Part shown: piece by piece, positions 23,203 to 41,650 of the stretch
How positions within the stretch are numbered: the stretch's first letter is position 1
How the letters are laid out: each line of letters starts with the position of its first letter
Source of the DNA: Nitrosomonas sp.
GTDB lineage: Bacteria; Pseudomonadota; Gammaproteobacteria; Burkholderiales; Nitrosomonadaceae
Assembly: GCA_020890945.1 (NCBI GenBank)
Contig: JAJHPK010000032.1
Coordinates: 1-42,820, forward strand
DNA: 42,820 bases
Reading direction: 5' to 3'
The notes under the pieces: generated by a model
The model's database searches: none
Told to the model about the DNA's origin: nothing
Seen by the model: the letters and a program-made list of their open reading frames with translations, nothing else
Position numbers and translations under genes: made by a program

Positions 23203-23245
23203 GACGTGGCCTTGAAAAGCAGATTGAACGAAATGGATTGAAGAT

Positions 23246-24660: not shown

Positions 24661-24720
24661 GTGATAACAATGGAGCATATGGCCGAAATCAGACGCAGAT
24701 ATTTTGAGACCTTTGCAAAA
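24661..24720 (+). pseudogene. Possible first codons of another istA
   Basis: GTGATAACAATGGAGCATAT opens a frame reading MITMEHMAEIRRRYFETFAK, similar to the start of a second IS21 IstA subgroup. Similarity ends after about 16 codons, immediately before the 106-bp repeat region. Too short for certainty. Confidence 0.3.
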
Positions 24721-24787
24721 TCACAGGTAATTCTTGTTTCAATGCAATGCTGTGTCAATCAGCATCAAATATTTGCCGCTTTTGAAA

Positions 24788-24893
24788 ATATTATTTTCAA
24801 ATACGAAATTTATTATTTATATAGAACAATGGAATATGAATTTATGCTGAAAATATTGATGCTGATACCTGGAAAGTTTTCAACGCCGATTGA
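24788..24893. repeat. 106-bp direct repeat, copy 1 (left of PKS cluster)
   Basis: This 106-base segment, from ATATTATTTTCAAATACG to AAGTTTTCAACGCCGATTGA, is identical base for base and in the same orientation to 42091-42196. Its last 30 bases resemble the terminal motifs of IS21-type elements (compare 299-345). It lies between a sliver of istA and an istB remnant. Confidence 0.9.
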
Positions 24894-24911
24894 TACTTCA
24901 GGCATACAGCA

Positions 24912-25438
24912 TCTCAATAAAAAAGTGCGCTTCTTCAGCGCCATTGATCTGGCTAATAGTCTGGAGCAGGAAAAATCCACCGGCAAACAAGGGAGTCTTG
25001 CCCTGCGACTGTTGCAGGTCGATCTAGTCATTCTCGATAAACTAGGCTATCTGACACTCTCACAAGACAGAGGTGCTTTATTGTTTCACTTGCTCTCCAG
25101 ACTGTAGAACGCACCAGCGTAATCATTACCACCAACCTCACATTCGCAGAATGGAATTTTTTATCGATGCCAAAATGACCACCTCACTTCTGGATCGACT
25201 CACGCACCATTACTATATCCTTGAAACTGGAAACGAGTCTTTTCACTACAAATAAAGTACATCTAGCGCAAAGATCAGAATACAGCAACGGGGGAAAAAA
25301 CACTCACCAGAAGAAAATCTGGTTAATTTGTAATATCAGCAGGAGGAAAAACACCAACTCAGTACGGTCGAGTTATCCACAGATGCGTAGTATCCTTTGC
25401 TCTGTTTTCCCCTGGTCAATTTTAAACTGGTAGCAACA
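24912..25438 (+). mobile_element. IS21-family right part with istB pseudogene
   Basis: The istB text runs KKVRFFSAIDLANSLEQEKS, TGKQGSLALRLLQVDLVILD KLGYL (Walker B) and [13 protein letters not shown]. It then hits a frameshift, after which RTSVIITTNLTFAEW and [29 protein letters not shown] lead to a stop at 25253-25255. Walker A is absent. After the gene come the element's terminal motifs, CCTGGTCAATTTTAAACTGG, and the end GGTAGCAACA at 25438. It shares the LEQEK deletion junction with the copy at 11.6-12.3 kb. Confidence 0.7.
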
Positions 25439-25500: not shown

Positions 25501-26199
25501 CTACTCATACAACCAGAATCCAGTATAAATATACGATTGATCAAAGTACACATGCCCAACTGGTTTGCATTTCCCAAAAAAAGATTGTTTCATTGAATGT
25601 TCAGGTATATATACAGAGAAATTATTTTGATTCAAATGCATTGTGATGCTGATGCAACTTAATTCAAGTAAATAACTATATGCATAGTAACAGCATTTTA
25701 GGACACTTTCTTTTGCAGAAAATATGCTATAGGCATATCGATCTCTCAATGCAAGCTGAATAAGTAAAATTGCATTTTTTTCCGATGATGAAAATATACT
25801 GTTAATTGTATTGTATGGAAAAGGAGTCAAGAATTCTTGAATATCGATTCCCAATGCACGAATGTTTTTTTTCAGCGCAGCTACTGCAATAGCTTTGCTG
25901 CCACTGTGGCTGATACTGCCAGTAATACCGGGAGGCCAGAGCGGTGCGCCATATTGATCGGCTAAAAGCGGTATGTCTTTATATCCCATTTTATCGAGAA
26001 CCTGATGGGCGCAAAAACGGCCGGTACAGAAGTCTTGCTGACGCTTAATACTAGCCCCGGTTATTAAAGATAATTCCAATTTGTGAAGTGCCTGCTGGTC
26101 TTTCGGAGTGTCACACATTTCAAAATAAAAAGGTGGAGAAGGTAGCATGATTGCCAGCGCTTGCTCTGTAGGATAGCTAAAGGATAATTTCTTTTGCAT
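25501..26199 (-). CDS. 4'-phosphopantetheinyl transferase (Sfp/EntD-like)
   Basis: About 232 residues. Landmarks are CTGRFCAHQVLDKMGY (the R--AH-AL motif), APLWPPGITGSISHSGSKAI (the PpGi-GSiSHs motif), ALGIDIQEF (Mg-binding GID-x-E/Q) and FSAKESVLKC (the F-aKE-hyK motif). It transfers the phosphopantetheine arm from CoA to the serine of a carrier protein; the obvious client is the ACP of the polyketide synthase in this cluster (Ser2036). It is the last gene on the minus strand and starts about 18 bases after the barrel gene. An ATG at 26199 is taken as start; a TTG at 26214 would add five residues. Low GC relative to neighbours is noticeable. Confidence 0.88.
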   Translation of the reverse strand: MQKKLSFSYPTEQALAIMLPSPPFYFEMCDTPKDQQALHKLELSLITGASIKRQQDFCTGRFCAHQVLDKMGYKDIPLLADQYGAPLWPPGITGSISHSGSKAIAVAALKKNIRALGIDIQEFLTPFPYNTINSIFSSSEKNAILLIQLALRDRYAYSIFSAKESVLKCCYYAYSYLLELSCISITMHLNQNNFSVYIPEHSMKQSFFGKCKPVGHVYFDQSYIYTGFWLYE

Positions 26200-26217
26200 G
26201 ATGATATTTTTCAAAAG

Positions 26218-27438
26218 CTAGAAATAGCGTGAGATGCGGAACTGAATGTAACTGTCCTTACGATAACCGGTTAGAATCTCTGTTCTGGGGTTATCAGACG
26301 AAATATTTTCAAAGAAACGGGATTCCAATTCGATTTTCCATTTTTCACCAATTCTGCGGCTTGCAGTGACGGTGCCGATTTTTGCTTGAGTTTCTAGATC
26401 AGTAGTAACACCAGCCAAGAACTGAGAATTTTGCGCATCGTTAAATGCAAATCGCACGCCAAAGAACACATCGTTGTTGAACGGTGTGGGGGGTGCGACT
26501 CTATCGCGTCCATCGTAAAGATACTCTGCCAACAAACCAACATCGATATCGGTACCTAGCAAACCATAGTGGGTATACTCAGCGCCGACTACAACTGCTG
26601 CAAAACGCTTCCCCTGTCCGCTGCGTGTAATCGCTTCCAGCTTGAAAAGCCAGTTTCCCAGCGATGCCTGAGCATCCAGACTGGTTTGTTGAATCAGATC
26701 GTAAACTGGGATAAGTGCTGTCGGATTGGTGTTGAGTCCATTATCAAACCTGGGAAGTAATCGAGGCTCCCGCCCAACGCCCATGAAATGCGCCAAACCG
26801 ATATCGACATTACCAAAAGTCCGACTCCAGCGAACCGCCCAGTCCGGATGCCAGCGATTGGCGCTATCACTAAATTCGGATGCATTTTGATCAACCGGCG
26901 GCACAAACCTCAATCTTCCATGTAATGCAGGGAAAGTTCGATCTCGGAAATATGGTAAATATAAAAAGTTGAAATTCCCATAGGCACTGGGTATGTTCAA
27001 GCTGACCATCGGTTGTCCCAGTTTCTCTTCGCCGTTAATATTTTCTACCAGATCGATTTGATTGATGATATCAACGAGATGACGCGACTCGGTTACACCC
27101 CAGAATACTCTACCGACTCCCGCGCGGATATTCCACTTTGGATTTTGATATAACCAATTAAGCTCGCGAATATCAAAGTGCGTTCGATGTTCATCAATTG
27201 CATCAATCCGGCCAAAAGGGATAAAAGTCAGGCGATTCGAGCCATTACCCCACTCATGGCGGAATTCCGGTTGTGCGACACCTGACGGTACGAAACGAAG
27301 ATTGCTTTGTTCCGCAAATACCGGAGCGTTTGCATAGGTGCGGAAATCAATGGCCGCAAAACCGGACCATTCGGCAGCGTGAGCATCGATCATAGTCATA
27401 TGAATCACCAACATGAAGAAGAGTAATCTCGATTGCAT
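26218..27438 (-). CDS. Outer-membrane beta-barrel protein of the export set
   Basis: A 406-residue protein with a signal peptide (LLFFMLVIHMTMIDAHAAE, cleavage near residue 22). Alternating strands with many aromatic and charged residues follow, and the chain closes in SYIQFRISRYF, the terminal aromatic expected for BAM-inserted barrels. Recognisable features include WLYQNPKWNIRAGVGRVFWG and FLYLPYFRDRTFPALHGRLR. I cannot name its Pfam family, but similar barrels accompany RND/LolA-like pairs in lipid-export loci. It starts at the ATG at 27438 after an AAAGG site; a GTG one codon earlier is possible. It is separated by about 160 bases from the LolA-like gene. The expected role is the outer-membrane step of product export or anchoring. 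Confidence 0.7.
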   Translation of the reverse strand: MQSRLLFFMLVIHMTMIDAHAAEWSGFAAIDFRTYANAPVFAEQSNLRFVPSGVAQPEFRHEWGNGSNRLTFIPFGRIDAIDEHRTHFDIRELNWLYQNPKWNIRAGVGRVFWGVTESRHLVDIINQIDLVENINGEEKLGQPMVSLNIPSAYGNFNFLYLPYFRDRTFPALHGRLRFVPPVDQNASEFSDSANRWHPDWAVRWSRTFGNVDIGLAHFMGVGREPRLLPRFDNGLNTNPTALIPVYDLIQQTSLDAQASLGNWLFKLEAITRSGQGKRFAAVVVGAEYTHYGLLGTDIDVGLLAEYLYDGRDRVAPPTPFNNDVFFGVRFAFNDAQNSQFLAGVTTDLETQAKIGTVTASRRIGEKWKIELESRFFENISSDNPRTEILTGYRKDSYIQFRISRYF

Positions 27439-27596
27439 CACAGTTGCCTTTGAATACTGGTTTTTCGGATTTTCAGGGCGATCGATGTTTAATCCGGTAT
27501 CCGGTGAGGTACCGGATTAAACCATTTCATTTCTGCAAAACCTGTTAACTAAACAGATAGTTTATTGAAGGATCTGAGTGCATTGATATTGGCTAT

Positions 27597-28379
27597 TTAC
27601 TGCACGTTCTTCAGAGAGCTATCCATAAAGTCACTTTCTGTTAGTCCAATACGAAACCGGTAGTTAGTGCGTATCAATGAAGTACTTTTGCCATTTTGGT
27701 GATTGACCATTTCAAGCTTCCCGGCTCTCCAGTACTGACCTAAATATTGGTTGTAATCACTAAAAGTAAGCGTTTTCAGCAAAGTGTTCTTGCGATCATA
27801 AAAATCGATCCGGCGCGGCTGGTAGATGGTTTTATCAATCCATTCAACTTGACGAACATAACCCGAATACTCATATGCGGGGATATTTTCGATAACAAAG
27901 CAGTCATTGCCGTCTATTACTTCATCGCGCAGGTATTTATATTTATATTTTTCCAATTCCCATGAGGCGATATCTTCGTAGGCGAATTCACTGCCCATGA
28001 ATGGCCCGGATTTGTTGACCGTTGAAATACGCTTGACGCGCTTCAATTCCGGTAGGTATAGCCATTGGTCATCTGGTTTTAAACCATGCGCATAAGTCAG
28101 AATGGCAGTGCCTTTTACATCTGCCGGGCGATGGAAAACGCCGAGCTCTTTATCGCCGTCGCCCGTCATTTCTAGTGTTTTGTAGGTAAACTCGCGCTTG
28201 CTTTCATCGCCTTGCGTATTGCGCAATACCATTAAAGCATCATGAATGCTGTCGCCAAAACCGCTGTCACGGCGTTCAACTTCGCGATTGATGGCGTAAC
28301 CTTTTTCTTCGTCGGTCATGGCATGAAGCGTGATGCTCATGCTGAAGAAAAGGCTAATTAGGTAAAAGATCTTTTTCAT
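27597..28379 (-). CDS. LolA-like outer membrane lipoprotein-sorting family protein
   Basis: A 260-residue secreted protein (signal peptide MKKIFYLISLFFSMSITLHA). The mature part has the half-barrel landmarks of the 'outer membrane lipoprotein-sorting' LolA-like group: DALMVLRNTQGDESKREFTY, ILTYAHGLKPDDQWLYLPEL KRVKRIS, FMGSEFAYEDI and VEWIDKTIYQPRRIDFYD. Such proteins occur next to MMPL-type RND transporters and are thought to receive a hydrophobic cargo in the periplasm. The ATG at 28379 is chosen because GGAGA lies just before it. It begins 19 bases after the RND gene stop, so the two are coupled in one transcript. Confidence 0.85.
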   Translation of the reverse strand: MKKIFYLISLFFSMSITLHAMTDEEKGYAINREVERRDSGFGDSIHDALMVLRNTQGDESKREFTYKTLEMTGDGDKELGVFHRPADVKGTAILTYAHGLKPDDQWLYLPELKRVKRISTVNKSGPFMGSEFAYEDIASWELEKYKYKYLRDEVIDGNDCFVIENIPAYEYSGYVRQVEWIDKTIYQPRRIDFYDRKNTLLKTLTFSDYNQYLGQYWRAGKLEMVNHQNGKSTSLIRTNYRFRIGLTESDFMDSSLKNVQ

Positions 28380-28398
28380 AGGTTTCTCCATTTAAAAT

Positions 28399-30717
28399 TT
28401 AGTGATGATAGGTGGAAGATCTGGTCAGATGGCTTTTCCATGATTCCAGCGTTAGTAGTAGCGGGGGAAGCAAGAGGAATTCTGCGAACAGTCCCAGACC
28501 GAAAATGGTCGAGGTGAGCATTCCCATTTCGTTGTTGATTTTGAAGCTGGAAAACGCGAACAGGGAAAATCCCATGATCAGCACAGCGGAAGTAATCCAT
28601 AAGGCGCTGCCTACTGTGGCGAAAGCGTAGCGGATGGAGTCTTCCGGTGTCAGATTGAGCTGTTTTCTGGCGTGCTGGTATTTGCTGAGAAAATGGACGG
28701 TATCATCCACCAGAATTCCCAGCGTCATGGCCGCCACGACCGAAGCTGCAAGCCCTACCTGACCGACAATCAATCCCCATAAACCGAATGCAATTGCAGC
28801 AGGAATCAGATTCGGGATTAAGCTGATCAGGCCGAGTTCGACTGAGCGCAATACCAGAATCAGGATCAACGAGATAACGCCGATGGACACAATCTCTCCT
28901 GTGATCATACTAGTTATATTCCGTTGGCCGATATGCGCGAACAATAATGTCGCGCCTGTGCCTCCGCTGTGTTTTATCGCGGAAGTATTGGCAGCGAGCC
29001 AAGCCTGCGCGCGTTCTTCAAGATCGATCACCTGCTGGCTGGAAATACTATGCAGAGTGGTGGTTACGCGTGTAGCCGATTTACTGACATTAATGCGATC
29101 GTTCAGATCCAATCCATACGGTAAGGACATTTCGTACATCAATAGAATCTGTGCGCTTAGGTCTCTGGTCTCCGGCAAGCGGTACCATGCCGGATCGTCG
29201 TCATGCATGTTCCGATTCAGCCGCTTAAGGATATCGGTTACCGCGTAGACATGCATAACTTCTGGTTGCTTCCGGTACCATTGTACAAAGGCGTCAACCT
29301 GATTCAGAAATGTCGGATCACTGATTCCACCTTCGATTTCTGTGCCAAGGGAATAATCGATGCGGTAAACACCGGTTAGATTGGCCGTGGTGTAATCAGT
29401 ATCGCGACGGAATGCAATGGAATCATCAAAGTATTTGACATACTCATCATCCAGTTCATTCAGCGGAATGCAGGCAATCAGTGCGATCGTAATCACAACG
29501 AGAAAGAACAAGACGGTGTTGCGGTAATCGATGATAAAGTTCGCCAGTCGCGCGAGTGTCCTGCTGTTGCCGATGCCGGTGCGACCTTTATGCAGCGGTA
29601 ATAGCATGATCAGCGCAGGCAAGAAAGTGACTGTCAGAAAGAAAGCCAGTCCGACACCCATGGCCGTAATATTGCCGAGATCCTGAAAAGGCGGAACCTC
29701 GCTGAAGTTCATCGAAAGAAAACCGATCGCTGTGGTCAGATTGGTAAAAAGAATCGCTTTAAAGTTAACCGCGATGCTATCTGTCATGGCGTTCTTTCTG
29801 TTCAGTCCGAGTTCCAGCGCGCTGTAGTAGCCTGTTAATATATGCACAGCATCGGCGACAACGACGGTGAGCAAAATGGTTGGAGCGGGGATGCTCGAAG
29901 GAGAAAACGCAATATTCATCCAGCCGGCCAACCCGATTGCACCGGTGACTGCCAGCACCATCATGGCGATAATAGCGGCTGTTCCCCACAATGATTTAAG
30001 GAACAGCGCTAAGGTGAGACAAATGATGGTGAGCATTGCCGGTGTCAGCGTGGCCATGTCGTGCTTAGACGATTCCGCAAAGGAGGTATCCAGGATCAGC
30101 GAGCCGGTCAGCCGGATATCCAAATCGACGTATTCCTTTTTTAGCGTATTCACCAGATTTCTGACGAATTCGACCGCTTCCGTGGTTTCTTTGTCTTGAT
30201 CCAGCGCGGGTCTGTGCACGACTATATTGATTCCCATCACGCTCGAATCAGGGGAGATGAGCCTGTTAATCAACAGCGGCTCGTTTAAAGCAATTTTTCG
30301 CTTCTCATTGATTTGCTGCACGCTGAGTTGATCAGCATTCCTTACCAAATCTTCAACAAAAAGCTCGTCACCGATGGCATGGCTGTATTGAAAATTTGTG
30401 ATCGAATCGACTCGTATCGAATACGGTGTTTGCCAGAGCGCTTTGGTTAATTTCTCGGCGATGACAAGATTCTCCTTGGTGAATACATCACCGTTAGCGG
30501 GTGTCACCACCACCAGCAGATTGTCATCCCGCACATAAGTCTTGTTTAAGGAATCAAAAGCGAGGAGCTGCGGATTTTCTTCGCTGAAGAACATGCGGTA
30601 ATCGCTTTTAAAGTCCAGAAACTGGATACCGTAACTGGCGGCCATCACCAACAGGACGCTTAGAATGACGGTCCACCAGCTATATTGCAGTATCTGGCGG
30701 GTATAGGGAGTAAGCAT
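28399..30717 (-). CDS. MMPL-family RND transporter
   Basis: A protein of about 772 residues with the two-fold RND layout: one helix near the N-terminus, a large periplasmic loop (about 50-210), a five-helix bundle (about 215-390), a second loop and a second bundle (about 620-760). Motifs include PAPTILLTVVVADAVHILTG YY and MTLGILVDDTVHFLSKYQHA, the paired D-xx-H transmembrane-4/10 relay expected in MMPL/HAE3 exporters. It uses the proton gradient to move hydrophobic molecules from the inner-membrane outer leaflet. The ATG at 30717 follows AAAAGGA; an earlier ATG at 30735 lacks a ribosome site. Next to a polyketide synthase with amino-lipid chemistry, the likely cargo is the cluster product. 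Confidence 0.88.
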   Translation of the reverse strand: MLTPYTRQILQYSWWTVILSVLLVMAASYGIQFLDFKSDYRMFFSEENPQLLAFDSLNKTYVRDDNLLVVVTPANGDVFTKENLVIAEKLTKALWQTPYSIRVDSITNFQYSHAIGDELFVEDLVRNADQLSVQQINEKRKIALNEPLLINRLISPDSSVMGINIVVHRPALDQDKETTEAVEFVRNLVNTLKKEYVDLDIRLTGSLILDTSFAESSKHDMATLTPAMLTIICLTLALFLKSLWGTAAIIAMMVLAVTGAIGLAGWMNIAFSPSSIPAPTILLTVVVADAVHILTGYYSALELGLNRKNAMTDSIAVNFKAILFTNLTTAIGFLSMNFSEVPPFQDLGNITAMGVGLAFFLTVTFLPALIMLLPLHKGRTGIGNSRTLARLANFIIDYRNTVLFFLVVITIALIACIPLNELDDEYVKYFDDSIAFRRDTDYTTANLTGVYRIDYSLGTEIEGGISDPTFLNQVDAFVQWYRKQPEVMHVYAVTDILKRLNRNMHDDDPAWYRLPETRDLSAQILLMYEMSLPYGLDLNDRINVSKSATRVTTTLHSISSQQVIDLEERAQAWLAANTSAIKHSGGTGATLLFAHIGQRNITSMITGEIVSIGVISLILILVLRSVELGLISLIPNLIPAAIAFGLWGLIVGQVGLAASVVAAMTLGILVDDTVHFLSKYQHARKQLNLTPEDSIRYAFATVGSALWITSAVLIMGFSLFAFSSFKINNEMGMLTSTIFGLGLFAEFLLLPPLLLTLESWKSHLTRSSTYHH

Positions 30718-30780
30718 TGATTTAGTCCTTTTCATTTCTTAGGTTGTGCAATTGCTGCGCATTTCCGGTGGCTATCCGGA

Positions 30781-32142
30781 TCAAGATAAAGTAACTCCGT
30801 CCCTAGTTTTCTGTTGCAATTGGCGTAGCGCTTGCGCAAGTGTGTTCACCGTGTAAATCACTTCTTCCTCGGATAGATTGCTGGTAATAAAAAAACGTAA
30901 CCGGGCAGCCGATTCAGGTACGGCAGGATACATGATCGGATGAACGTTGATTCCTGCCTCGTATAACTTCTGGCTGAGTTTCAAGCAAAGAACCGAATCT
31001 CCCAAGATGATCGAAACAACGCCTGTGCCATTGGCCAAACCGGTATCTAGCCCTTGTTCCTTGGATCGTTGGAGAAATAAAGCCGATCTGGTGCGTAAGC
31101 GCCTGGCCCGTTCCGGCTCGCGTTTCAAGATTCGGACCGAAGCGAGAGCGGCGGCGGTATTTGGAGGAGAAATACCGACGCTGAATAACACTGCGCCGGC
31201 TGCGTTGTATTTAAGATTCTCGATCAGAGCGCGAGAGCCGCAAATATAGCCTCCGCAACTTGCGAATGCCTTGCTTAACGTACCCATCCAGATATCGACT
31301 TCAGCGGCATCGATTCCGAAGTGATCATGTGATCCGAATCCGCTCGGTCCGATAATACCGGCTGCATGCGCCTCATCGACCATGAGCAGGCACTTGTGTT
31401 TTTTCTTGAGCTCGATGAAACGTGGCAGATCGGAAATATCGCCGTCCATACTATAAACGCCCTCGATAATAATCAGGATGCGTTGATAGGCACAGCGCTC
31501 ATCGGTCAAAATTTTATCGAGCGTTTCCCAGTCGTTATGGGGAAATGTCATGCGCCGTGCACCCGATAACTTGCATCCTGTGATAATGCTATTGTGAATC
31601 AAACTATCGTGTATCAACAGATCATAGGGGCCGAATAAATGGCTGATCACGGCGACGTTGGTCGAGTAGCCGCTGACTAAAGCCAGGGCATCTTCTGTGC
31701 CGTGAATTTCGGCTAGGATTTGTTCCAGTTCGCGATGTAGCGGAATTTCTCCCGACACGATGCGGCTGGCTGAAACCGAAGTGCCATATTGATCGATAGC
31801 CGCCTTGGCGGCGCCGGATACCTCGGGATGACCCGATAAACCGAGATAGTTATAGCCTGAGTAGTTAATGAAGTCTTTGCCGTCGATACGGGTAATATGG
31901 TCGCTGATACCTTGATGCGGATTGAAATACGGATTATTCATCGAAAGTGTCTTGAATATTTTTTCCTGCTCCATCAGCGTGTTGTAATCCGGAAACTTTT
32001 CAAACCGGTACCATGCTTCCGGTATGCTGTCCGAGTCTGGTTTCTCATTCAGATCATTATTTTTTTGCGAGATCAGTTTTTTCAGCAAATTGCGCTTTTC
32101 ATCTAGTGGTAAATTTTCCAACTGACTGGCTTTATTGTTCAT
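30781..32142 (-). CDS. Alpha-oxoamine synthase (PLP-dependent, AONS/SPT-like)
   Basis: A 453-residue fold-type I PLP enzyme of the family that includes 8-amino-7-oxononanoate synthase, KBL and serine palmitoyltransferase. Landmarks are INYSGYNYLGLSGHPEV, GTSVSASRIVSGEIPLHREL E, LIHDSLIHNSIITGCKLSGA, MVDEAHAAGIIGPSGFG and the PLP lysine in GTLSKAFASCGGYICG. These enzymes condense an amino acid with an acyl thioester, releasing CO2 and CoA or ACP. A 50-residue N-terminal extension (LPLDEKRNLLKKLISQ) resembles carrier-interacting or docking regions. The ATG at 32142 follows AAAGG; an upstream in-frame extension overlaps the next gene and is not coding. With a thioesterase-less PKS upstream, it is the probable release enzyme. 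Confidence 0.85.
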   Translation of the reverse strand: MNNKASQLENLPLDEKRNLLKKLISQKNNDLNEKPDSDSIPEAWYRFEKFPDYNTLMEQEKIFKTLSMNNPYFNPHQGISDHITRIDGKDFINYSGYNYLGLSGHPEVSGAAKAAIDQYGTSVSASRIVSGEIPLHRELEQILAEIHGTEDALALVSGYSTNVAVISHLFGPYDLLIHDSLIHNSIITGCKLSGARRMTFPHNDWETLDKILTDERCAYQRILIIIEGVYSMDGDISDLPRFIELKKKHKCLLMVDEAHAAGIIGPSGFGSHDHFGIDAAEVDIWMGTLSKAFASCGGYICGSRALIENLKYNAAGAVLFSVGISPPNTAAALASVRILKREPERARRLRTRSALFLQRSKEQGLDTGLANGTGVVSIILGDSVLCLKLSQKLYEAGINVHPIMYPAVPESAARLRFFITSNLSEEEVIYTVNTLAQALRQLQQKTRDGVTLS

Positions 32143-32213
32143 TTGATCAACCTTTATAAAATTTTTTAATGGATTGAAGTTGGTTATTGATCTGCTGTTT
32201 GCACGGGTGTGCT

Positions 32214-33821
32214 TTATTGATTTCCACGAGCAACAACAGCCATCATATCTTTCTGGAGAATATTGGAAGCAGCGACCACTCCACCAAACAGTGCTTCGAC
32301 AATACCGCAACCAGCTACATCCTGGCCCGTTAGAAGTAAATTCTTTATCGGTGTGCGTGCACCTAGCCAGCGTGCATTAAAACGTTCCGGTGTATGTGCT
32401 AATCCATAAATTTCTCCTGAGGGATAATTTGCAAAATGCTCTGTTGATAAGGGTGTAGAAAGCTCACAGTAGTCAATATTTCCTTTTACCGCCGGAACAT
32501 GGCGCTCCAGAGCTTCTAGTAGTCGCTTGGATAATCTATTTTTAAATGTTTCGTACTCTTCACCACGATGCTGCCACCGTGAACCTTTCCATTTTTCGAA
32601 ATGATTGAATGGTGTAAGCGTAAAAACCTCAATAGTTGAACGACCGGGGTAACGACTTAAAAAGGTTGAATCTTTGGATGAAGGAAACGATATATAAAAG
32701 AAAGGAAATGGTGCTTCTATGTTTTCACAAAAATGTGCGAAATTGAGATCCTGGTTATGGTCAGGATAAATCCAAAGATTCGAGTCACCATATTTATTAG
32801 CGATTTCTGAAGTATTCTTGAGACCAATGTAGAGGCAAATATAGCAAAAGGAAGGTGGAATAGAGCTGAGCAAATTTTTCTCAGGTAACGAATGTGTTAC
32901 TTCGGAGGAAAGCAAGTTGTTATAAGTATTCACTGCTCCGGCATCACTAATAACATTCTCTGCTCTAATTTCCTGCCCACCTTTCATTCTCACTCCGAAG
33001 GCTTTTTTATTTTTATCCACAAGAATTTCTTCTACATGTGCACTTCTGACTATACATCCACCACTTTTTTCAATCGTAGAGGCGATAGATTCGGCTATTT
33101 TTGATGCACCACCAATTGGATAGCCCGCTACCTCGAAATAGTGATGTGCAACCATACTGTGCATCCCGAAGCTGCTTTTGCCAGGCGGCAAACCGTAGTC
33201 ACCCCATTGTCCTGTTAGTACAGCAGCTAACTCAGGATTTGACGTGAATTCAGAAATAGCTTGTGCGGTGGTTTTTTTTGCATGACGCATGAAACCATAT
33301 CGAAGCAACCCTCCGATGGAACTAGCAATTGGACTTGGGATGGTTTTTTCAGCAAAACACAAACTGCTCAATTTTTCGGCAGAGTTGACGGTACAAATAT
33401 ATTTATCAATTGCTCGTGACTCGGATGGAAAATAGGCATGCATCTGTTGCCTGAATCTTTCAGTACCTGTTGGAAAATCAAAAACTTGATTCCCAATGAA
33501 TACTCGGTCATAAATATCCGGCATTTTGTTCCATAGCAATTCGCCATAAGTGAGATAATCAAAAGCTGCCCGAACTTCCATAGTTGGATCGCCGGTCCGG
33601 CCGATATAATGTACTCCTACATCCCACTCATAATCTGAACGGTGAAACACATGGGTAAATCCTCCGGCCACAGAGTGTTTCTCGAGGACAAGTACTTTTT
33701 TATTTCCATGCCGAGATAGAAGTGCCGCTACCGTAAGCCCACCAATACCGGAACCGATTACAATGCAATCGTATTTTTTGTCCAGCTTATGTTGCTTATA
33801 AGAAACACCGACCTGTTTCAT
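32214..33821 (-). CDS. FAD-dependent CrtI/RetSat-like oxidoreductase
   Basis: A 535-residue flavoprotein. The N-terminal dinucleotide-binding motif is DCIVIGSGIGGLTVAALLSR, followed by VLVLEKHSVAGGFTHVFHR and YEWDVGVHYIGR, the signature of retinol saturase and carotenoid isomerase relatives. The C-terminal FAD motif is NLLLTGQDVAGCGIVEALFG GVVAA. Members desaturate, saturate or isomerise long polyene chains. In this cluster it would act on the polyketide-derived chain, not a carotenoid, as no carotenoid genes are present. It starts 27 bases after the PKS stop in the same direction and ends 71 bases before the oxoamine synthase. The direction of the redox reaction cannot be read from sequence. 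Confidence 0.85.
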   Translation of the reverse strand: MKQVGVSYKQHKLDKKYDCIVIGSGIGGLTVAALLSRHGNKKVLVLEKHSVAGGFTHVFHRSDYEWDVGVHYIGRTGDPTMEVRAAFDYLTYGELLWNKMPDIYDRVFIGNQVFDFPTGTERFRQQMHAYFPSESRAIDKYICTVNSAEKLSSLCFAEKTIPSPIASSIGGLLRYGFMRHAKKTTAQAISEFTSNPELAAVLTGQWGDYGLPPGKSSFGMHSMVAHHYFEVAGYPIGGASKIAESIASTIEKSGGCIVRSAHVEEILVDKNKKAFGVRMKGGQEIRAENVISDAGAVNTYNNLLSSEVTHSLPEKNLLSSIPPSFCYICLYIGLKNTSEIANKYGDSNLWIYPDHNQDLNFAHFCENIEAPFPFFYISFPSSKDSTFLSRYPGRSTIEVFTLTPFNHFEKWKGSRWQHRGEEYETFKNRLSKRLLEALERHVPAVKGNIDYCELSTPLSTEHFANYPSGEIYGLAHTPERFNARWLGARTPIKNLLLTGQDVAGCGIVEALFGGVVAASNILQKDMMAVVARGNQ

Positions 33822-33848
33822 TTTTTATCCATCCAATTTATTAAGAAG

Positions 33849-36800
33849 TTAAGCCTGAAGTTGCTGCAGCAATAGATCAATATCTTTCTCAGACATATGA
33901 TCAATTACTGAGCTTTCTTGAATGGTTGCTTCTGAAACAGGAGATGAGATCGACAGGATCGTTTTCTCCATCAGGATGTGCGCCATATGCGCTAGGTTTG
34001 GACTGCGCATTAACTCTAGCGTAGAAATTCTGACGCCGAAAGCTTTATTGATCAGCGCTTGCAACTCCGCAGACATCAGAGAGTCGATGCCCATGTGCAT
34101 TAAAGAATGCTCACTATCGATTTTTTCCATCGGTATGCGCAACACCGAAGCCACTTGTTCGGAGAGGACATGCAGCATTCCCGCCTCTCTTTGTTCCGCA
34201 GGAAGCTGGAATATTTCTTGACAGACTTTGGTGAGTGCGTTTTCCGATTTTTGATCGGCATGGCCGACCAAGTTTTCGAACCGGGGAGAATTGCCGCCGG
34301 TAGGTTCGAATGCTTGCCACTTCTCCCAATCGCAATTCATCAATCCATATTGAGAGAGATCGGTACCGCGCATTTGCGCCCAGCAATCCATGGATTGATT
34401 GACCGTGATGGTGTTCATCCCCATCAGATTCAGATGTTTTTTCACTTCTTCGCTATTCACTGCCATACCGGTTGCTATAGCCCCCCAGTTGATACTCGTG
34501 CCAGCCAAACCATCTGCACGGCGTTTGGCCGCCAGTGCGTCGAGGAAAGTATTGGCTGCGGCGTAGTTAGCTTGACGCGCATTTCCGATGATTGCGGAAA
34601 CCGATGAGAATAGAACGAAGAAATCGAGCGCATCGTTTTGAGTGTATTGATGCAGATACCAAGCACTCAATGCTTTAGCACGCATGACTCGAGTCATTCG
34701 CTCCGGAGTCAATTCGGCAATCGGTGCATCATCCAGAATGGCCGCAGTATGGAATATTCCTTTCAGGGGTGGACAAGTGCTAGAGATTTTGTCAAATAAA
34801 GACTTAACTTGCGTTTCATCGGTTAAATCAGCAGCTACTGCCGTTACTTGCACATCTTTCCCCGATAACCAATCCAACAGTGTTTTTGCCGCATCATCCG
34901 AAGCACCGCGGCGGCTAACCATGATCAGGTGCTTAGCACCATGCTTGGCCATCCATTTTGCTGCTTCGAGTCCAAACCCGCCGAAACCGCCAGTAATCAG
35001 ATAGGCTGCATGTTCTTTGAATAATACGGATTGCTGTTGATCAATGACCGTGATGGCGGATTTATCCTGTAGCGATAAAATTTTCGTGGCATCGGTGATA
35101 GAGTGATTCCGATCGGACAAGTAGGCAACGCCTTCAGTCAGTGTGAATTCATTAATCTGCGGCAAACTGAGAATCTGACCCGTGCTGAATAAATGCACGA
35201 TCGCATCCAGCAGTTGCTGGAATAAATCCGGAGCCGTCAGTGCAAGTTTTAGTGCATCCAGGTGAATAAAGCTTTTTTGCAATAAACTGACCGGTAAGCG
35301 ATCGGTATGGCTTTGGGTTAGAACAATTTCATGTGTTTCGGGCAACAGCAAGTGCTCTATGCCCTCCGGTTTGTGTGCGGCAATGCCTCGTATCCAGACG
35401 CGTATCGGCGCTGCTTCCGGATTTCTAAGGCAGGTAATGTCTTCCTTTTGATGATAAAGCACGGGAGATGCGCCCAGGCAGTTTGCCACTGCCACTATAG
35501 CGCTAGCCGCAGCACCTAACGCACCATCGATCAGCACTGTTTCCAAAGGTGCCACCCGGGCGACGTATTTCAGGGCGTAATACGCGGGTACTAGCGTGGT
35601 TGCCAATGAAGTAATTTCTTCATGGTTGAGTTGGAATCCGTCAACAGAAAATACCTTGTCAGCTGTACAAACGACGTGCGAAGCAATGATTTCATCGGTC
35701 ACCAGCATGACAAGTTCGCCAACGCTGTGATTGAGCACTTGGCTTCCTACTTTATCGATAACACCTAGCGCAAAATAACCGTGCACATCGGTTTCATTCG
35801 TTTCGGTAAGCTGATAGCTGGTCAAGTTAATGCATTGCAACACCACGACCACTTCAACATTTTCGGGAACTGGTGCAGGCATAGCATGAAATTCATAGCG
35901 GCCTTGTCTGCTGAGTCGAAACGCTTCAACGCTTGCGCCACTGCGCTCGTTCGATGGAAGCTCAATGCTCTGTCTGATCCAGCGATGAACATAGCGTTCT
36001 TGGCCGCGTAAAGCGACATCATCTTCGCTGTCGTCAGACATTAATTCCTTGGTTAATAAATGAACCTCTTTGCCCGCGTTTACCGGATCCAAATCGATTT
36101 GTGTGCAGCGCAACAACGGAAATTCATTCAATGCCACACGTGTCAATCCGGTTAATGCGGTTAACGGGATATTTGAAATTTCACCGCCGCCGCTAACCGC
36201 TTGCGTTCCTTGAGTGACGACATAGACACGAGGCGCCTGGGTTGTAAACACTTTGCTAAGCAGCTGGATAATTTGTAAGGCAACATTCGCTTGTTCGATA
36301 CCGACGGGATCATTGTGCGTTGTTCCTGCCAGTCCCCATAAATAGGCGATACCGGCGCATCCTTGCGATTTTGCTTTTAAAACGATTTGTTCCAAATAAC
36401 CAAGCTCGCCGGGATTGAGCGCATGAACATGACTGAATTCCTGCTGATAAACTTCGTTGAGCGGTACCCGTATCACATGATTACCGCTCGCTTTCAGTTC
36501 TTGACACAGAGCTTCGCTGGCGTTGCTGTTGTCGCTGAACACCAACCAGCCGCCCTTGCGCTTCACATTCGATGGCATCGCTTTTTTCTGCCATTGCCAC
36601 GCATATGTCCATTCCGCCAATTGCTCGCTCAGATTTTTCTTTTCGTTGGTTAAAGCGCGGCAGCGCAAGCCTTCGACTTTCACCAGCACATTGCCCTGCT
36701 CGTCGAATAGCGTTAGTTCTCCTTCAATGCTGTGTTCATTGATGTGATTCAGCTTGCCGTGACACCACAGCTTATTACCCGGTTTTCCCTGATAGCTAAT

Positions 36801-39800
36801 GCATTTGATCGTAACCGGCATGTAAAAATGATCGTTTTCACTGGTGGCTGCAATGAGTGACTGAAAACAGCCATCCAGCATGGTGGGATGCAAGAAGTAA
36901 CCCGGGTTTTCTTGCAACAGGCCGATATGCAGCTGGATCTGTGCCAGTACTTCGTTGTGACCGCGCTGGAGTTGCTGAATAGTCCGGAAGTAAGGGCCGT
37001 AAGATAAGCCACGTTCGTTAAGTTCCGCGTAAAGTTCGCCGACATTAACTTTCTCGGTGCATCGCTGCTGAATATCCGCTCGTGCGATCATTTCTGATTC
37101 CAACGCTGCCGGCAAAATTTTCGCTGAAGCATGCAGGGTCCAATCCAGCGCTGTATCCTGGTAGTAGCTGTGGAATGCATATTGGCCGTTTTCTTGATCG
37201 TAACTGACGTGGATAAGAGGTTCACTTCCATTGCCACTCAGAATTAACGCTTGGTGAAAATATAATTGCTCAATCACGCACGCCGTGTTGCCCGTTGCCT
37301 GGTTAAATGCCGCCAATCCCGCTTCTACATAAGCGGCGCCCGGTATGACAACAAGTTCATCGACCACATGATTATCCAGGTACGGTAGGAATTGACGATT
37401 GATGGCACTTTGCCATACCGGTTTGGGACCGGATAAACGGCGATCGAGCAATGCATGAACGGGTGTTCCGATACGATCAGTAACAGACTCTTGATCTTCG
37501 TTCCAGTACGTCTCTCTTTGCCAAGGGTAGGTTGGCAATTTAACGTACCCGGCATCATCCGGATACAATCGTTTCCAGTCGATTTTGCAACCGGCCGTGT
37601 AAAGTCCGGCCAAAGTCATTCGGAATGTGTGCTGCTCGGCTCGATCTCGCCGCAAGGAGGCGAAAGCTTGCGGTTTGATATTTTGTTGTTGACAGCAATC
37701 CTTGATAGCGGTTGATAAGACCGGGTGTGGGCCCACCTCGAGAAAAGTGCGGTAACCGTCTTGCAGCAAACTGTCCATGGCCTGAGCAAAATAAACCGGT
37801 TCGCGCACGTTATTGCACCAGTACTCAGCATCAAATCTCAAACTGTCAGTCAATTTTCCCGTCACCGTCGAGTACAATGGCACCTGCGGCAAGTTAGGTT
37901 GCAAGTCAGCCAGAGTTTTTCTGATTTCAGGTTTCAAATGCTCCAAGAAAGCACTGTGATAAGCCAGCTCGACTTGCAAAAACCGATTGAACTCGCCCTG
38001 TGCTGTCAAATGTATTGATATTCTCTCTAATGCGGCGGAATCACCTGAAAGCGTCACTTGCGTAGGACCGTTAACTGCTGCGATGGAAACATCGCCATTG
38101 GTTAGTTTCGTGATTAACTCCGCGCAGTGTTCCATACTGACGCCAACGGCGAGCATTCTTCCACAGCCAGCGGCTTTTTTTAGAATGCGGCTGCGTTCAT
38201 AACTGACTTTGATGGCATCTTCCAGACTGAGCGCACCTGCGGCATAAGCTGCGGTAATTTCTCCCAAACTATGTCCGACGATCGCGCCCGGTTCGATGCC
38301 GCTGGCACGCCACATAGCAGTTAATCCGGCTTGCACCAGGAAGTTTGCCGGCTGCGCTATTTCTGTTTGGGTGATTTTCGAGTTTTGTTCGTCGGCCAGC
38401 ATTTCGTTCAGGATTGACCATCCTGCTAGTCGTCGGAAAATCGAATCGCATTTTTCTACGGTTTCCCGATAGATGGCGTTGTTTTCATACAATTCTCTTC
38501 CCATGGCCCACCATTGCGGGCCCATGCCGGTGTAAACGAATACTGGTTTTGTCGTTGTCTTGCTGTCGGTTTTTCCCGCAACCCCGGTGTAATTTGCTTG
38601 CCCCGCCAGATAAGCGCTGAGTTGGTCGTACATGTTTTTCCAGGAATTACCAATAACCGCCAGCCGGTAATCGTGATGCCCCCGGCGGCATGCCGCTGAA
38701 AAGCACAGGTCTTTTAATGCTCCTTTATAATCGCGCGAAAATTTGTTCATCCAAGCACGTGCAAGGTTTTGTAACGCTTGCTCACTGCGGGCGGAGAGTG
38801 GCAGTAAATAGATTTGACCCGCTGCATCTTCCTTGCGAATCAGTTTCAGAGTATGGGGCGCATTTTCCAGTACCGCGTGCGCATTGGTTCCGCCGTAACC
38901 GAACGAATTGACGGCGGCGTAAATGGACTGGGAATCGGATTGTAATGGTTCCAATCGGGTCGGTAAGCGCAGACCTAATTCTTCAAAAGGAATGTTAGGA
39001 TTGGGCGTATGTAAATTAGCTTGCGGCGGCACCTGATGATGCGCGAGGCAAAGCGATGTTTTAATGATTCCGGCGATGCCGGCTGCTGCTTCCAAGTGAC
39101 CGATAGCGCCCTTGACGGAACCCATCAAGCGAGATTTGTAGCGTTTCGAATGTTTGTAGACGGCATCCCCCAATGCTTTGGCTTCGAGTGGATCGCCGAC
39201 CGGTGTGCCGGTGCCATGGGCTTCGAAATAACAGATTTCGCTGGTATCGATCCCGTATTTATCACACACCGACCGAATCAATGCCGTTTGTGAAGCTGGA
39301 TTAGGGACAGTAATACCGTTGGTTCTGCCATCTTGATTGACGCCGGTGCCGCGTATCAGTGAATAAATCGAATCTCCATCTTTTAATGCTGCCGATAACG
39401 GTTTCAGCACAACAACTCCGGCACCCTCTCCGCGCCCGTACCCATTAGCACTGGCGTCAAAACTTTTACTGCGTCCGTCAGGTGCAAGAAAGCCACCTTT
39501 GCACATGGCAATCGGATACTCCGGACGCATCATGACATTGACTCCTCCAGCCAGTGCCAAATCGGATTCACCGTTCCAGATAGCCTGGCAAGCGAGGTGT
39601 AATGCCACCAATGAAGACGAGCAAGCCGTATCGACACTCATACTGGGACCGCGCAAGTCCAAAATATACGAAATGCGGTTGGAAAGGATGGTCATCGTTG
39701 AGCCCACGGCGGTATGCGTACTGATCAGATCACGATTCATTTTACCCATCTGGGTGAGTTTATGATCGAGCGTAAATGCTCCGATAAAAACGCCTGTGTT

Positions 39801-40187
39801 GGATCCGATCAGAGATTCATACGGAATGCCAGCATCTTCCAAGGCTTCCCAGCTGGTTTCCAGCAGAAGGCGCTGTTGAGGATCAATCGCCCCTGCTTCA
39901 CGGGGGGTGATACCAAAAAATAGTGCATCAAATTCATCGACTCGCTGCTGTAAGAAACCGCCTTGCTTGACATACATTTTTCCGGGCTTGTTTTGGTCTG
40001 GATCATAAAAACGCTTAAGGTTCCACCGTTCTGGGGGGATATCGACGATTGCGTCCTTACCTGTAACCAATAAATTCCAGAAACTTTCCGGATCGTGAGA
40101 TCCCCCGGGAAAACGACAACCAATTCCTACTATTGCTATTGGTTCGTAAGCCGCTTTTTTGGTTGATCTTAATTTTTTCTGCCTCAT
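33849..40187 (-). CDS. Type I polyketide synthase, KS-AT-DH-ER-like-KR-ACP
   Basis: A 2112-residue single-module enzyme. KS about 14-440 (Cys189 in DTACSSS, His324 in EAHGTGT, His364 in GHLEA). AT about 548-850 (Ser640 in GHSLG, substrate motif LAYHS, probably malonyl). DH about 908-1175 (His940, Asp1105 in LDGCFQ; the Gly of HxxxGxxxxP is Glu944). A structural region about 1190-1400. An ER/MDR-like domain about 1425-1700 whose nucleotide motif is eroded (VLIDGALGAAAS in place of a GGVG-type loop). KR about 1727-1910 (TGGFGGFG, Tyr1875, Asn1879). ACP about 2005-2075 (Ser2036 in MGIDSL). No thioesterase follows. The order equals highly reducing iterative PKSs. AGGAG precedes the ATG. Confidence 0.93.
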   Translation of the reverse strand: MRQKKLRSTKKAAYEPIAIVGIGCRFPGGSHDPESFWNLLVTGKDAIVDIPPERWNLKRFYDPDQNKPGKMYVKQGGFLQQRVDEFDALFFGITPREAGAIDPQQRLLLETSWEALEDAGIPYESLIGSNTGVFIGAFTLDHKLTQMGKMNRDLISTHTAVGSTMTILSNRISYILDLRGPSMSVDTACSSSLVALHLACQAIWNGESDLALAGGVNVMMRPEYPIAMCKGGFLAPDGRSKSFDASANGYGRGEGAGVVVLKPLSAALKDGDSIYSLIRGTGVNQDGRTNGITVPNPASQTALIRSVCDKYGIDTSEICYFEAHGTGTPVGDPLEAKALGDAVYKHSKRYKSRLMGSVKGAIGHLEAAAGIAGIIKTSLCLAHHQVPPQANLHTPNPNIPFEELGLRLPTRLEPLQSDSQSIYAAVNSFGYGGTNAHAVLENAPHTLKLIRKEDAAGQIYLLPLSARSEQALQNLARAWMNKFSRDYKGALKDLCFSAACRRGHHDYRLAVIGNSWKNMYDQLSAYLAGQANYTGVAGKTDSKTTTKPVFVYTGMGPQWWAMGRELYENNAIYRETVEKCDSIFRRLAGWSILNEMLADEQNSKITQTEIAQPANFLVQAGLTAMWRASGIEPGAIVGHSLGEITAAYAAGALSLEDAIKVSYERSRILKKAAGCGRMLAVGVSMEHCAELITKLTNGDVSIAAVNGPTQVTLSGDSAALERISIHLTAQGEFNRFLQVELAYHSAFLEHLKPEIRKTLADLQPNLPQVPLYSTVTGKLTDSLRFDAEYWCNNVREPVYFAQAMDSLLQDGYRTFLEVGPHPVLSTAIKDCCQQQNIKPQAFASLRRDRAEQHTFRMTLAGLYTAGCKIDWKRLYPDDAGYVKLPTYPWQRETYWNEDQESVTDRIGTPVHALLDRRLSGPKPVWQSAINRQFLPYLDNHVVDELVVIPGAAYVEAGLAAFNQATGNTACVIEQLYFHQALILSGNGSEPLIHVSYDQENGQYAFHSYYQDTALDWTLHASAKILPAALESEMIARADIQQRCTEKVNVGELYAELNERGLSYGPYFRTIQQLQRGHNEVLAQIQLHIGLLQENPGYFLHPTMLDGCFQSLIAATSENDHFYMPVTIKCISYQGKPGNKLWCHGKLNHINEHSIEGELTLFDEQGNVLVKVEGLRCRALTNEKKNLSEQLAEWTYAWQWQKKAMPSNVKRKGGWLVFSDNSNASEALCQELKASGNHVIRVPLNEVYQQEFSHVHALNPGELGYLEQIVLKAKSQGCAGIAYLWGLAGTTHNDPVGIEQANVALQIIQLLSKVFTTQAPRVYVVTQGTQAVSGGGEISNIPLTALTGLTRVALNEFPLLRCTQIDLDPVNAGKEVHLLTKELMSDDSEDDVALRGQERYVHRWIRQSIELPSNERSGASVEAFRLSRQGRYEFHAMPAPVPENVEVVVVLQCINLTSYQLTETNETDVHGYFALGVIDKVGSQVLNHSVGELVMLVTDEIIASHVVCTADKVFSVDGFQLNHEEITSLATTLVPAYYALKYVARVAPLETVLIDGALGAAASAIVAVANCLGASPVLYHQKEDITCLRNPEAAPIRVWIRGIAAHKPEGIEHLLLPETHEIVLTQSHTDRLPVSLLQKSFIHLDALKLALTAPDLFQQLLDAIVHLFSTGQILSLPQINEFTLTEGVAYLSDRNHSITDATKILSLQDKSAITVIDQQQSVLFKEHAAYLITGGFGGFGLEAAKWMAKHGAKHLIMVSRRGASDDAAKTLLDWLSGKDVQVTAVAADLTDETQVKSLFDKISSTCPPLKGIFHTAAILDDAPIAELTPERMTRVMRAKALSAWYLHQYTQNDALDFFVLFSSVSAIIGNARQANYAAANTFLDALAAKRRADGLAGTSINWGAIATGMAVNSEEVKKHLNLMGMNTITVNQSMDCWAQMRGTDLSQYGLMNCDWEKWQAFEPTGGNSPRFENLVGHADQKSENALTKVCQEIFQLPAEQREAGMLHVLSEQVASVLRIPMEKIDSEHSLMHMGIDSLMSAELQALINKAFGVRISTLELMRSPNLAHMAHILMEKTILSISSPVSEATIQESSVIDHMSEKDIDLLLQQLQA

Positions 40188-40279
40188 ATCGCTTGCTCCT
40201 GAAAATTATGTGGCTCGCCTTCAAAGGCTTACTTGAAACCTGAGATAGAATGAACTACCTACAAAGTAGACTAAGTATG

Positions 40280-41650
40280 TCAAGTAGTGACCTGCATCCG
40301 TACGTCCGGATTGACTTTTAGGATTGCAAAATCCTCTGCGGTGGGCATGGGCCAATCCAATTTCCGATACAACTTGCGCACACGCTTGCGGAATGTGAGC
40401 CAATCGCAATAGTAAGTATGTCGAGGAGAGTCGATCATGTGTATCGGTCCCCGCAAGTCTCCGTATTCATTTCGGGCAATTTCGAGTAGCGCGAGGTCTT
40501 GCCCGGTTTTTTGCTTCTGGCTAAAGAGATAACAAGCCACCATGGATGCGAACAGCTCAAGATGCGGAAAAACTGCAGCATTGCCTTCGTAAAATCCGAG
40601 CGTGAACAAGTTCGGATGCCTGCGTGAGAAACATGTCATGTAATGGCCGACGCCATGCCCCGCCCATTCAATATGCTCGGAATCAAGGTATGGAAATTCG
40701 GCCTTGTAACCTGTCGCAAAAATAATTTGATCGACTTCAATCGATGAGGCATCGACGAAATGAACCATCGATCCCTCAAATCTTTCGATATCGGGTTTGG
40801 CATGCAAGTCACCATGGGCAAAACAAGAAAGGATCTCGGAGTTAAGGATCGGTTGTGTTTCAAGGATGCGATGCTTCGGTTTTTGTAATCCGTAGCGTGT
40901 CAGATCACCTAACAGGACGTTTAACATATGTCCGAATACCCACTGCCTGAATCTAAACGGCATCCATTCATTTTCCCGTTCGTAAATATCCGCTGGTTTT
41001 CCAAAAATCACCTTAGGAAGAAAATGATATCCCCGGCGCATGCTGATATAAGCAGCTTTGGCATTTCTTGCAGCTTCGGTGGCGATATCACAACCTGAGT
41101 TACCGGCGCCGACGATCAAAACACGCTGGTTTTTGAATTCATCAGAACTAAAGTAGTCTTTGGAATGACGCTGCCAACCGGTGAATGTTCCTGGAATTTC
41201 CGGATAACTTGGATTCCAGTGCATTCCGGAAGCGCAAATTACGCTACGGTAAATTCTTGTTTGGTTATTGACCTTGACCAGCCAGTAGCCATCTTTAGGT
41301 TCAATTTTTTTAACTTCACTGGAAAAATATATGTATTTTTTTAAATCGTAGGTATTGGCAAATTCATGCAAATAGGCGAGAATTTCATCCCGTCTTGGAA
41401 AATCGGCACCTGGCGGAAAGGGGAAACCCATAAAGCCGGATTCCGTTCTCGATGAAACGAAGTGCGTATGTTCATACACTGGTGTGCCGGGGTTCTCAAT
41501 GTCCCAGAGTCCGCCGATATCTTTATGGCGTTCAAAAACATCAAAAGGCAAGTCCAACGTCAGAAATGCACGTGCTTGTGCCAACCCGGAAGGGCCGGCA
41601 CCTATGATGCAGTGTTTATCCTTGCAGTCGATAATCGTTGTGTCATCCAT
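40280..41650 (-). CDS. Flavin-containing monooxygenase
   Basis: A 456-residue class B flavin monooxygenase. The FAD site is HCIIGAGPSGLAQARAF, the family fingerprint FxGxxxHxxxY appears as FTGWQRHSKDY and the NADPH site is VLIVGAGNSGCDIATEAARN. A late FATGYKAEFPYL corresponds to the FATGY motif. It inserts one oxygen into a nucleophilic N or S, or next to a ketone (Baeyer-Villiger). In this cluster a free amine or ketone made by the oxoamine synthase would be a natural target, which is an inference. It is the first gene of the minus-strand run, with TAGGAG before the ATG, 92 bases ahead of the PKS. Confidence 0.88.
   Translation of the reverse strand: MDDTTIIDCKDKHCIIGAGPSGLAQARAFLTLDLPFDVFERHKDIGGLWDIENPGTPVYEHTHFVSSRTESGFMGFPFPPGADFPRRDEILAYLHEFANTYDLKKYIYFSSEVKKIEPKDGYWLVKVNNQTRIYRSVICASGMHWNPSYPEIPGTFTGWQRHSKDYFSSDEFKNQRVLIVGAGNSGCDIATEAARNAKAAYISMRRGYHFLPKVIFGKPADIYERENEWMPFRFRQWVFGHMLNVLLGDLTRYGLQKPKHRILETQPILNSEILSCFAHGDLHAKPDIERFEGSMVHFVDASSIEVDQIIFATGYKAEFPYLDSEHIEWAGHGVGHYMTCFSRRHPNLFTLGFYEGNAAVFPHLELFASMVACYLFSQKQKTGQDLALLEIARNEYGDLRGPIHMIDSPRHTYYCDWLTFRKRVRKLYRKLDWPMPTAEDFAILKVNPDVRMQVTT

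Follow-up and report, generated by a model that had tools for sequence, protein, structure and literature searches.

The window analysed here, a stretch of 42,820 nucleotides from Nitrosomonas sp. (contig JAJHPK010000032.1 of GenBank assembly GCA_020890945.1), belongs to a genus of ammonia oxidisers and carries a run of eight same-strand genes, from 41650 down to 25501 on the minus strand, which includes a polyketide synthase (PKS) and an alpha-oxoamine synthase (AONS). On balance it seems probable, by a narrow degree, that this cluster makes a PKS-derived amino lipid, of unsaturated 2-amino-3-keto type, and exports it toward the outer membrane; the amino acid, the chain and the transport are what we infer. 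The gaps between neighbouring genes are 92, 27, 71, 45, 7, 155 and 3 bases, taken from the monooxygenase end to the phosphopantetheinyl transferase end, and are therefore consistent with a single operon. The features concerned are as follows, with "W-type" used below for the cluster type of the window, with its MMPL-LolA-OMP trio (OMP being the outer-membrane protein):

40280-41650, minus strand: FMO-type flavin-containing monooxygenase (FMO); Pfam FMO-like 5.8e-51, FxGxxxHxxxY from aa 156.
33849-40187, minus strand: monomodular PKS of 2112 aa with ketosynthase (KS), acyltransferase (AT), dehydratase (DH), decayed enoyl reductase (ER), ketoreductase (KR) and acyl carrier protein (ACP), in that order, from Pfam domains and motifs; no methyltransferase or thioesterase found.
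35088-35948, minus strand: decayed ER region within the PKS (aa 1414-1700), from the loss of GGVG and from the nonsynonymous to synonymous rate ratio (dN/dS).
32214-33821, minus strand: CrtI/CrtISO/RetSat-like FAD oxidoreductase; carot_isom 2.1e-37 and crtI_fam 2.1e-32, both below cut-off.
30781-32142, minus strand: AONS of 453 aa, probable start ATG 32142, from profile scores and alignments.
28399-30735, minus strand: MMPL/HAE3-type RND transporter; Pfam MMPL 5.9e-31, TIGR00921 3.7e-46, the latter below cut-off.
27597-28391, minus strand: LolA-like periplasmic protein (PF17131); Pfam 2.3e-60, no lipobox seen by eye.
27487-27522, no strand assigned: hairpin with a 15-pair stem, located after the LolA-like gene and before the OMP gene, from the sequence and from alignment by eye.
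26218-27441, minus strand: predicted OMP with C-terminal Phe; no Pfam family, barrel inferred by eye.
25501-26214, minus strand: 4'-phosphopantetheinyl transferase (PPTase); Pfam 4PPT_N 2e-22, ACPS 3.5e-11.

The first-pass annotation of this DNA had named the FMO, the PKS, the CrtI/RetSat-like enzyme (RetSat below) and the AONS at these positions, and all four have family matches far beyond chance. The unit reaches to 25501, and its exporter trio, which the earlier interpretation left unused, is present in eight of eight W-type genomes.

The AONS matches Aminotran_1_2 (7e-44), bioF (3.2e-102) and models for serine palmitoyltransferase (SPT; 4.9e-86 to 7.3e-60), with all of the bioF and SPT scores below their curated cut-offs. 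As an open reading frame (ORF) of 30781-32310 it had been recognised as the right gene with the wrong start: read from its TTG, the ORF would share 97 bases with the preceding gene, and the matches to six of seven W-type relatives (L016, L017, L019 and L020-L022) begin at ORF residues 42-70, so that ATG 32142, which is residue 57, is probably the translation start; counter to this, the match to L018 begins at ORF residue 4. Residues K291, D256, H259, H183 and R416, which we take to be the lysine that binds pyridoxal 5'-phosphate (PLP), the Asp and His of DEAH, the stacking His and the C-terminal Arg, are invariant in 13 aligned proteins and also align to the structures of SPT and of 2-amino-3-ketobutyrate CoA ligase (KBL). 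The residue after the catalytic His is Ala in 10 of 11 W-clade tips (9 of the 10 distinct ones; L030 has Ser), Ser in 31 of 35 proteins of the capsule-type clade and Ser in 38 of 38 cyanobacterial, planctomycete and related proteins; in the structures it is Ala in KBL 1fc4 and Ser in SPT 3a2b. The Ser that precedes the invariant Arg is as in SPT, and these two positions may bear on the choice of amino acid. The W-type AONSs form one clade (support 0.986 with 11 tips and 0.991 with 10; L029 and L021 are one contig, without a difference over 17,858 bases, and the earlier trees held both, the later one only one of them). The W clade alone is claimed, the capsule-type AONS clade having a support of only 0.514; a grouping of the W-type AONSs with cyanobacterial, planctomycete and myxobacterial ones was dropped when its support fell from 0.912 to 0.153 after 13 loci were added. 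Identity with BioF was rejected (342 bits against the TIGR00858 cut-off of 426.45), as was identity with the canonical betaproteobacterial SPT (243.1 bits against the NF047599 cut-off of 500). The genome has its own BioF elsewhere (451.2 bits, between bioB and bioH) and its own canonical SPT elsewhere (580.7 bits); canonical SPT is above cut-off in 12 of 12 same-genus genomes, and among 14 control genomes matches were seen in 3 and were above cut-off in 2. Passages of two papers deal with the spt gene (PMC9386255) and the ceramide genes (PMC11324152) of N. eutropha.

Five longer AONS homologues were examined, two with an N-terminal ACP, one with an acyl-ligase-ACP and two joined to PKS modules, which argues for an acyl substrate that is carrier-bound. 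Release of the PKS chain by the PLP enzyme, as proposed in the first-pass annotation, is well supported as a prediction, since the catalytic positions are kept, an ACP-terminated PKS without a thioesterase adjoins, and homologues are fused in this way. It is very improbable that the AONS leaves the PKS chain untouched and that the two enzymes give separate products: in the window they are joined by linkage alone, but at the W-type loci the PKS and AONS genes have at most one gene between them (none in L016, L018 and L020-L022, the RetSat gene in the window), 36 of the 76 other AONS-tree tips (outgroups excluded) have a PKS close by, the fusions join AONS to ACP and PKS domains, and no thioesterase was found in the PKS. 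AONS-encoding loci are widespread, the best 80 of at least 588 spanning many phyla, including cyanobacteria, planctomycetes and proteobacteria. At L038, L044, L051 and similar planctomycete loci the AONS proteins are of about 1150 aa; the one examined (L038) holds acyl-AMP ligase, ACP and AONS in a single chain, a variant of this logic in which the protein itself has no PKS. At two other PKS-AONS loci a formyltransferase-domain protein directly follows the AONS (L049:11143-12054 and L046:11373-12149), hinting at N-formylated amino lipids there.

The PKS has Pfam matches for KS (2.4e-92), AT (4e-82), KR (3.1e-65), DH (2.6e-38) and ACP (8.3e-13), and the motifs are in place: DTACSSS, EAHGTGT and GHLEAA in the KS, GHSLGE in the AT, and those of the DH, KR and ACP. 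The reported lack of a thioesterase was borne out, since the 14 Pfam families detected in the PKS at E<=0.001 include no thioesterase. The term "highly reducing" agrees with the KS, AT, DH, KR and ACP motifs and is made doubtful by the NADPH motif of the ER; "ER-like", used for that region, was correct but understated, the window PKS having neither a Pfam ER nor GGVG. Pfam ER is likewise missing from L020 and from the C-terminal part of L022, and is detected in the capsule-associated PKSs L024 and L027. The NADPH-binding GGVG occurs in none of the eight W-type PKSs counted (the window, L016-L021 and L028, whose bin is labelled Nitrospira) versus 34 of 38 other PKSs, with PKSs of 1800 aa or less excluded and one of L021 and L029 used; among the four non-W-type PKSs without it, L027 retains the Pfam ER and L077 fits a looser pattern. 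Outside these counts stand L022, L030 and L216; on separate inspection GGVG was absent from L022 and the diverged L216 and present in L073. Against L018, dN/dS is 0.26 in the ER region, 0.18 in the preceding linker, 0.01 in the KR and 0.03 in the KS; against L016 the values are 0.19, 0.17, 0.05 and 0.04. The KS, AT, DH and KR range over 0.01-0.11 where computable, most domains not being so against L019, where synonymous sites are saturated. Because its dN/dS is near that of the linker and well above that of the KR and KS, the ER region is relaxed roughly like a structural linker, and the catalytic domains are under tight constraint. As the ER has lost its NADPH motif the PKS is unlikely to be fully reducing, and as the ER has decayed while KS, AT, DH, KR and ACP are conserved, the product would be expected to retain double bonds.

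A search at E<=1e-80 gave one AONS match in each of 13 genomes out of 101 relatives, the genome itself counted; 12 of the 13 belong to the same genus and one to the same order. Eight of the 12 same-genus genomes have PKS-AONS-MMPL-LolA-OMP and are thus W-type; in the other four and in the same-order genome a PKS-AONS pair lies beside capsule-type genes. In L024 these are, by Pfam, a Wza-like protein, an ABC-2 permease and an ABC ATPase (a "KpsE" label was given by eye), and L027 has a Capsule_synth protein; L023, L025 and L026 carry the capsule-type label through similarity to L024. The W-type cassette is also seen in L028 and in Thiomargarita nelsonii (L030, its PKS split over two reading frames). 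At E<=1e-120 the AONS is in 12 of 369 class genomes, own included, and of all 13 other AONS places in class genomes one, L216 from another gammaproteobacterium, has the five genes in order (identities of 40% for PKS, 46% for AONS, 37% for MMPL, 43% for LolA and 29% for OMP). Of the eight-gene set, for which a search of other genomes was suggested at the outset, the PKS-AONS-trio core is present in eight of 12 same-genus genomes, L028, L030 and L216, with FMO, RetSat and PPTase not universal.

In a KS tree of 59 sequences the eight W-type KSs form a clade (support 0.996) to which L073 (0.967), then Tsukamurella (0.686), then Aureibacter (0.977) are added; the resulting clade of 11 tips (0.977) has neither the Pseudomonas nor the capsule-associated KSs in it. 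A tree of 68 sequences gives the W clade 0.988 and its union with L073 and L216 0.985, and there a clade of 12 tips including Tsukamurella and Aureibacter (0.978) excludes L062 and L088 of Pseudomonas. L022 and L030 were not included, and the deeper nodes are weak (0.587, 0.479). By these trees the window PKS appears to be of a lineage separate from the Pseudomonas and capsule-type PKS-AONS pairs. That the cluster's product is the lipid part of a capsule, as it possibly is for the pairs beside capsule genes, is improbable. In four same-genus genomes the pair does have a Wza-like export protein and an ABC-2 exporter as neighbours (by Pfam in L024, by similarity in three), and the single AONS match in each of the 12 genomes looks as if the two types were alternatives, but the eight genes include no capsule export gene and both the PKS lineage and the exporter are different; with no capsule genes in the cluster, a capsule role was set aside. 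The Pseudomonas PKS-AONS pairs L062 and L088 lie near genes similar to that for the L027 Capsule_synth protein.

The MMPL/HAE3 pump, the LolA-like carrier and the OMP, a predicted outer-membrane barrel, form a plausible path across the envelope, for which we infer direction and substrate. The OMP has relatives at E<=1e-30 in 125 of the 369 class genomes (this genome among them), and of 20 loci taken from the best OMP matches 15 have the full trio on one strand. Two clusters of regulator-size neighbour genes are present at 9 and 5 of the 20 trio loci, the one scanned from each being TetR. Two Sulfitobacter plasmid records have the trio behind a type I PKS in which Pfam detects an ER; there galE separates the LolA and OMP genes, and the plasmid stretches examined contain neither an annotated AONS nor a match to one. 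As the trio is common without a PKS, yet stands beside a PKS at the W-type and Sulfitobacter loci, it looks like a general module that may have been acquired by PKS clusters more than once. It could still be a general lipid-uptake or envelope module that is merely located in the operon, as its abundance in the class and its TetR-type neighbours would have it; we regard this as unlikely, because in Nitrosomonas, L028, L030 and L216 the trio lies behind the AONS on its strand, and on the two plasmids it lies behind another PKS. The hairpin 27487-27522 within the trio is shared by five genomes in the alignment, where by eye L017 shows a paired change and L019 a mismatch; exact matches to its 13-base arm in the genome are its two arms only, and with one mismatch allowed there are 8 sites versus 4 in the control.

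FxGxxxHxxxY, which presumably marks an FMO rather than a classical Baeyer-Villiger monooxygenase, is found in the window FMO and in five of five close homologues. The FMO is in five of eight W-type same-genus clusters, other FMO matches in the 12 genomes being 31-38% identical, and a search of the 12 same-genus genomes found RetSat in three, each of them W-type. Both enzymes, which the first-pass annotation stressed, are therefore accessory to the cluster. RetSat as a general trans-acting ER was set aside, with five of eight W-type genomes lacking a match (E<=1e-30) and no remnant found by blastn (E<=1e-3) in L016, L018, L020, L021, L022, L028 and L030. A Dolichospermum AONS locus has a RetSat-like oxidoreductase (L063:14617-16173, 25% identical) together with PKS pieces. 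The PPTase has a match in six of eight W-type genomes and none in L019 and L022, whose stretches extend beyond the OMP gene; in L016, L017 and L018 it matches as two pieces in different frames with a similar breakpoint, and the window copy is a single open frame.

In the scheme we favour, the PPTase would activate the ACP of the PKS, which would act iteratively and, without a working ER, leave double bonds; the AONS would condense the ACP-bound chain with Ala, Ser or Gly, with loss of CO2 and release of a 2-amino-3-ketone. The FMO may oxygenate the nitrogen, the RetSat-like enzyme, where present, may isomerise or reduce double bonds, and the MMPL pump, LolA-like carrier and OMP would carry the lipid toward the outer membrane. 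Several points weigh against this. No product is known for the cluster; the window PKS and L018 have a GALG that a looser NADPH-motif pattern still accepts; and the Thiomargarita PKS L030 retains EGVG, so that unsaturation would not be general. For the ER region dN/dS is barely higher than the 0.17-0.18 of the structural linker, a trans-acting reductase could substitute for the ER, RetSat is without a match in the five W-type genomes noted above, and no free short-chain dehydrogenase/reductase (SDR) that could serve as ketone reductase is among the eight genes, the cluster being all that this search covered. PKS, AONS, RetSat and FMO matches are absent from all 20 trio loci (E<=1e-15, some contigs being short), so that the substrate of the trio here rests on linkage.

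A saturated sphinganine, like that of the PfSgaAB system of Pseudomonas, with enoyl reduction in trans and the decayed ER as a mere scaffold, is a possibility that we doubt. The two-enzyme logic is identical, the decayed ER is still constrained (dN/dS 0.19 and 0.26) and a RetSat-type enzyme is in three of eight clusters; but the KS clade (0.977; 0.978) excludes Pseudomonas L062 and L088, five of eight genomes are without a RetSat match (E<=1e-30), and the cluster has no SgaC-like SDR. The earlier interpretation as a whole is partly supported, and its chemical logic is likely. More tentatively, the unsaturated amino-lipid scheme may be extended to a self-contained system in ammonia oxidisers that makes and exports a polyunsaturated, possibly N-oxygenated, sphingoid-like outer-membrane lipid, combining a separate PKS lineage with a widespread RND-LolA-OMP module, alongside the genus's canonical SPT gene. 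If true, release by an oxoamine synthase is paired with at least two PKS lineages, one of them with a candidate dedicated envelope route; a three-gene exporter linked to a lipid synthase would make transport of a sphingoid-type lipid to the outer membrane directly testable, and there may then be two separate sphingoid-type routes in some ammonia oxidisers.

An ORF at 24661-25107, close to the cluster's PPTase end, partially matches IS21 IstB. The neighbourhoods of the cluster differ among relatives (L016 and L018 share one, and L022 is near ATP-synthase-like genes, by eye), so that mobility of the cluster is possible. No relative emerged from a viral scan. Promoter-like sites numbered 20, below the shuffle mean of 28.3, and terminator-like sites 21, not above chance (18.0 expected, sd 4.4). 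At 15200-24199 a Family 2A (SrpI-like) encapsulin adjoins a 608-aa protein of class V aminotransferase fold, which we take to be of cysteine desulfurase type; with them are an EAL protein, a solute-binding protein, two permeases, an ATPase with a CysA C-terminus and a hexapeptide-repeat protein. This is likely a sulfur-related encapsulin locus.

Among the papers listed by literature searches, no title or abstract beginning described this cluster, nor did any deal with this exporter system, and no paper came up under the names rkpG/rkpA. The gammaproteobacterial MMPL-LolA-like-OMP modules have the same three families in the same order, but without a PKS or AONS match in 20 loci. Fungal sphinganine analogues such as fumonisin share the combination of a highly reducing PKS with release by an oxoamine synthase, but are eukaryotic and have other tailoring, and fumonisin-type fungal PKSs have an active ER. 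Fumonisin-type pathways had been cited in the first-pass annotation as the known example; the bacterial PfSgaAB is closer and has overtaken any claim that the bacterial route is new, release of a PKS chain as a sphingoid by a PLP enzyme being already known in bacteria, as passages of PMC12134224 make clear. There, PfSgaA and PfSgaB of Pseudomonas fluorescens MYb115 are reported to give C24, C26 and C28 sphinganines (Peters et al. 2025), PfSgaB to prefer Ser strongly over Ala and Gly, and homologous clusters to number 6,101; the words "Nitrosomonas" and "capsule" do not occur in the main text of that paper. The likeness, on the same passages, is a type I PKS linked to an AONS, a PLP enzyme that uses an amino acid to release the chain, and the window has the monomodular PKS linked to an AONS that marks the SgaAB type. 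It differs from PfSgaAB(C) in its KS lineage (for which P. putida and P. paraversuta homologues, not MYb115, were the stand-ins), in its decayed ER, linked exporter trio, FMO and RetSat, and in having no SgaC-like SDR among the eight genes. The vitroprocines from Vibrio sp. QWI-06 are also amino-polyketides, for which PLP-dependent chain release has been proposed from labelling, but they are built with Tyr or Phe, and the passages of PMC4523872 concerned hold no PKS gene cluster. The wcb/rkp capsule clusters with a type I PKS, Nitrosomonas included (passages of PMC3908369), likewise have a monomodular PKS, and related loci in the present analysis pair it with an AONS; the capsule-associated L024 and L027, however, have a Pfam ER and neighbouring capsule export or synthesis genes, and the window has neither. 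What sets the window cluster apart from these systems is its PKS lineage, its decayed ER, its own AONS clade, its optional flavin tailoring and the linked trio in place of capsule-type exporters.

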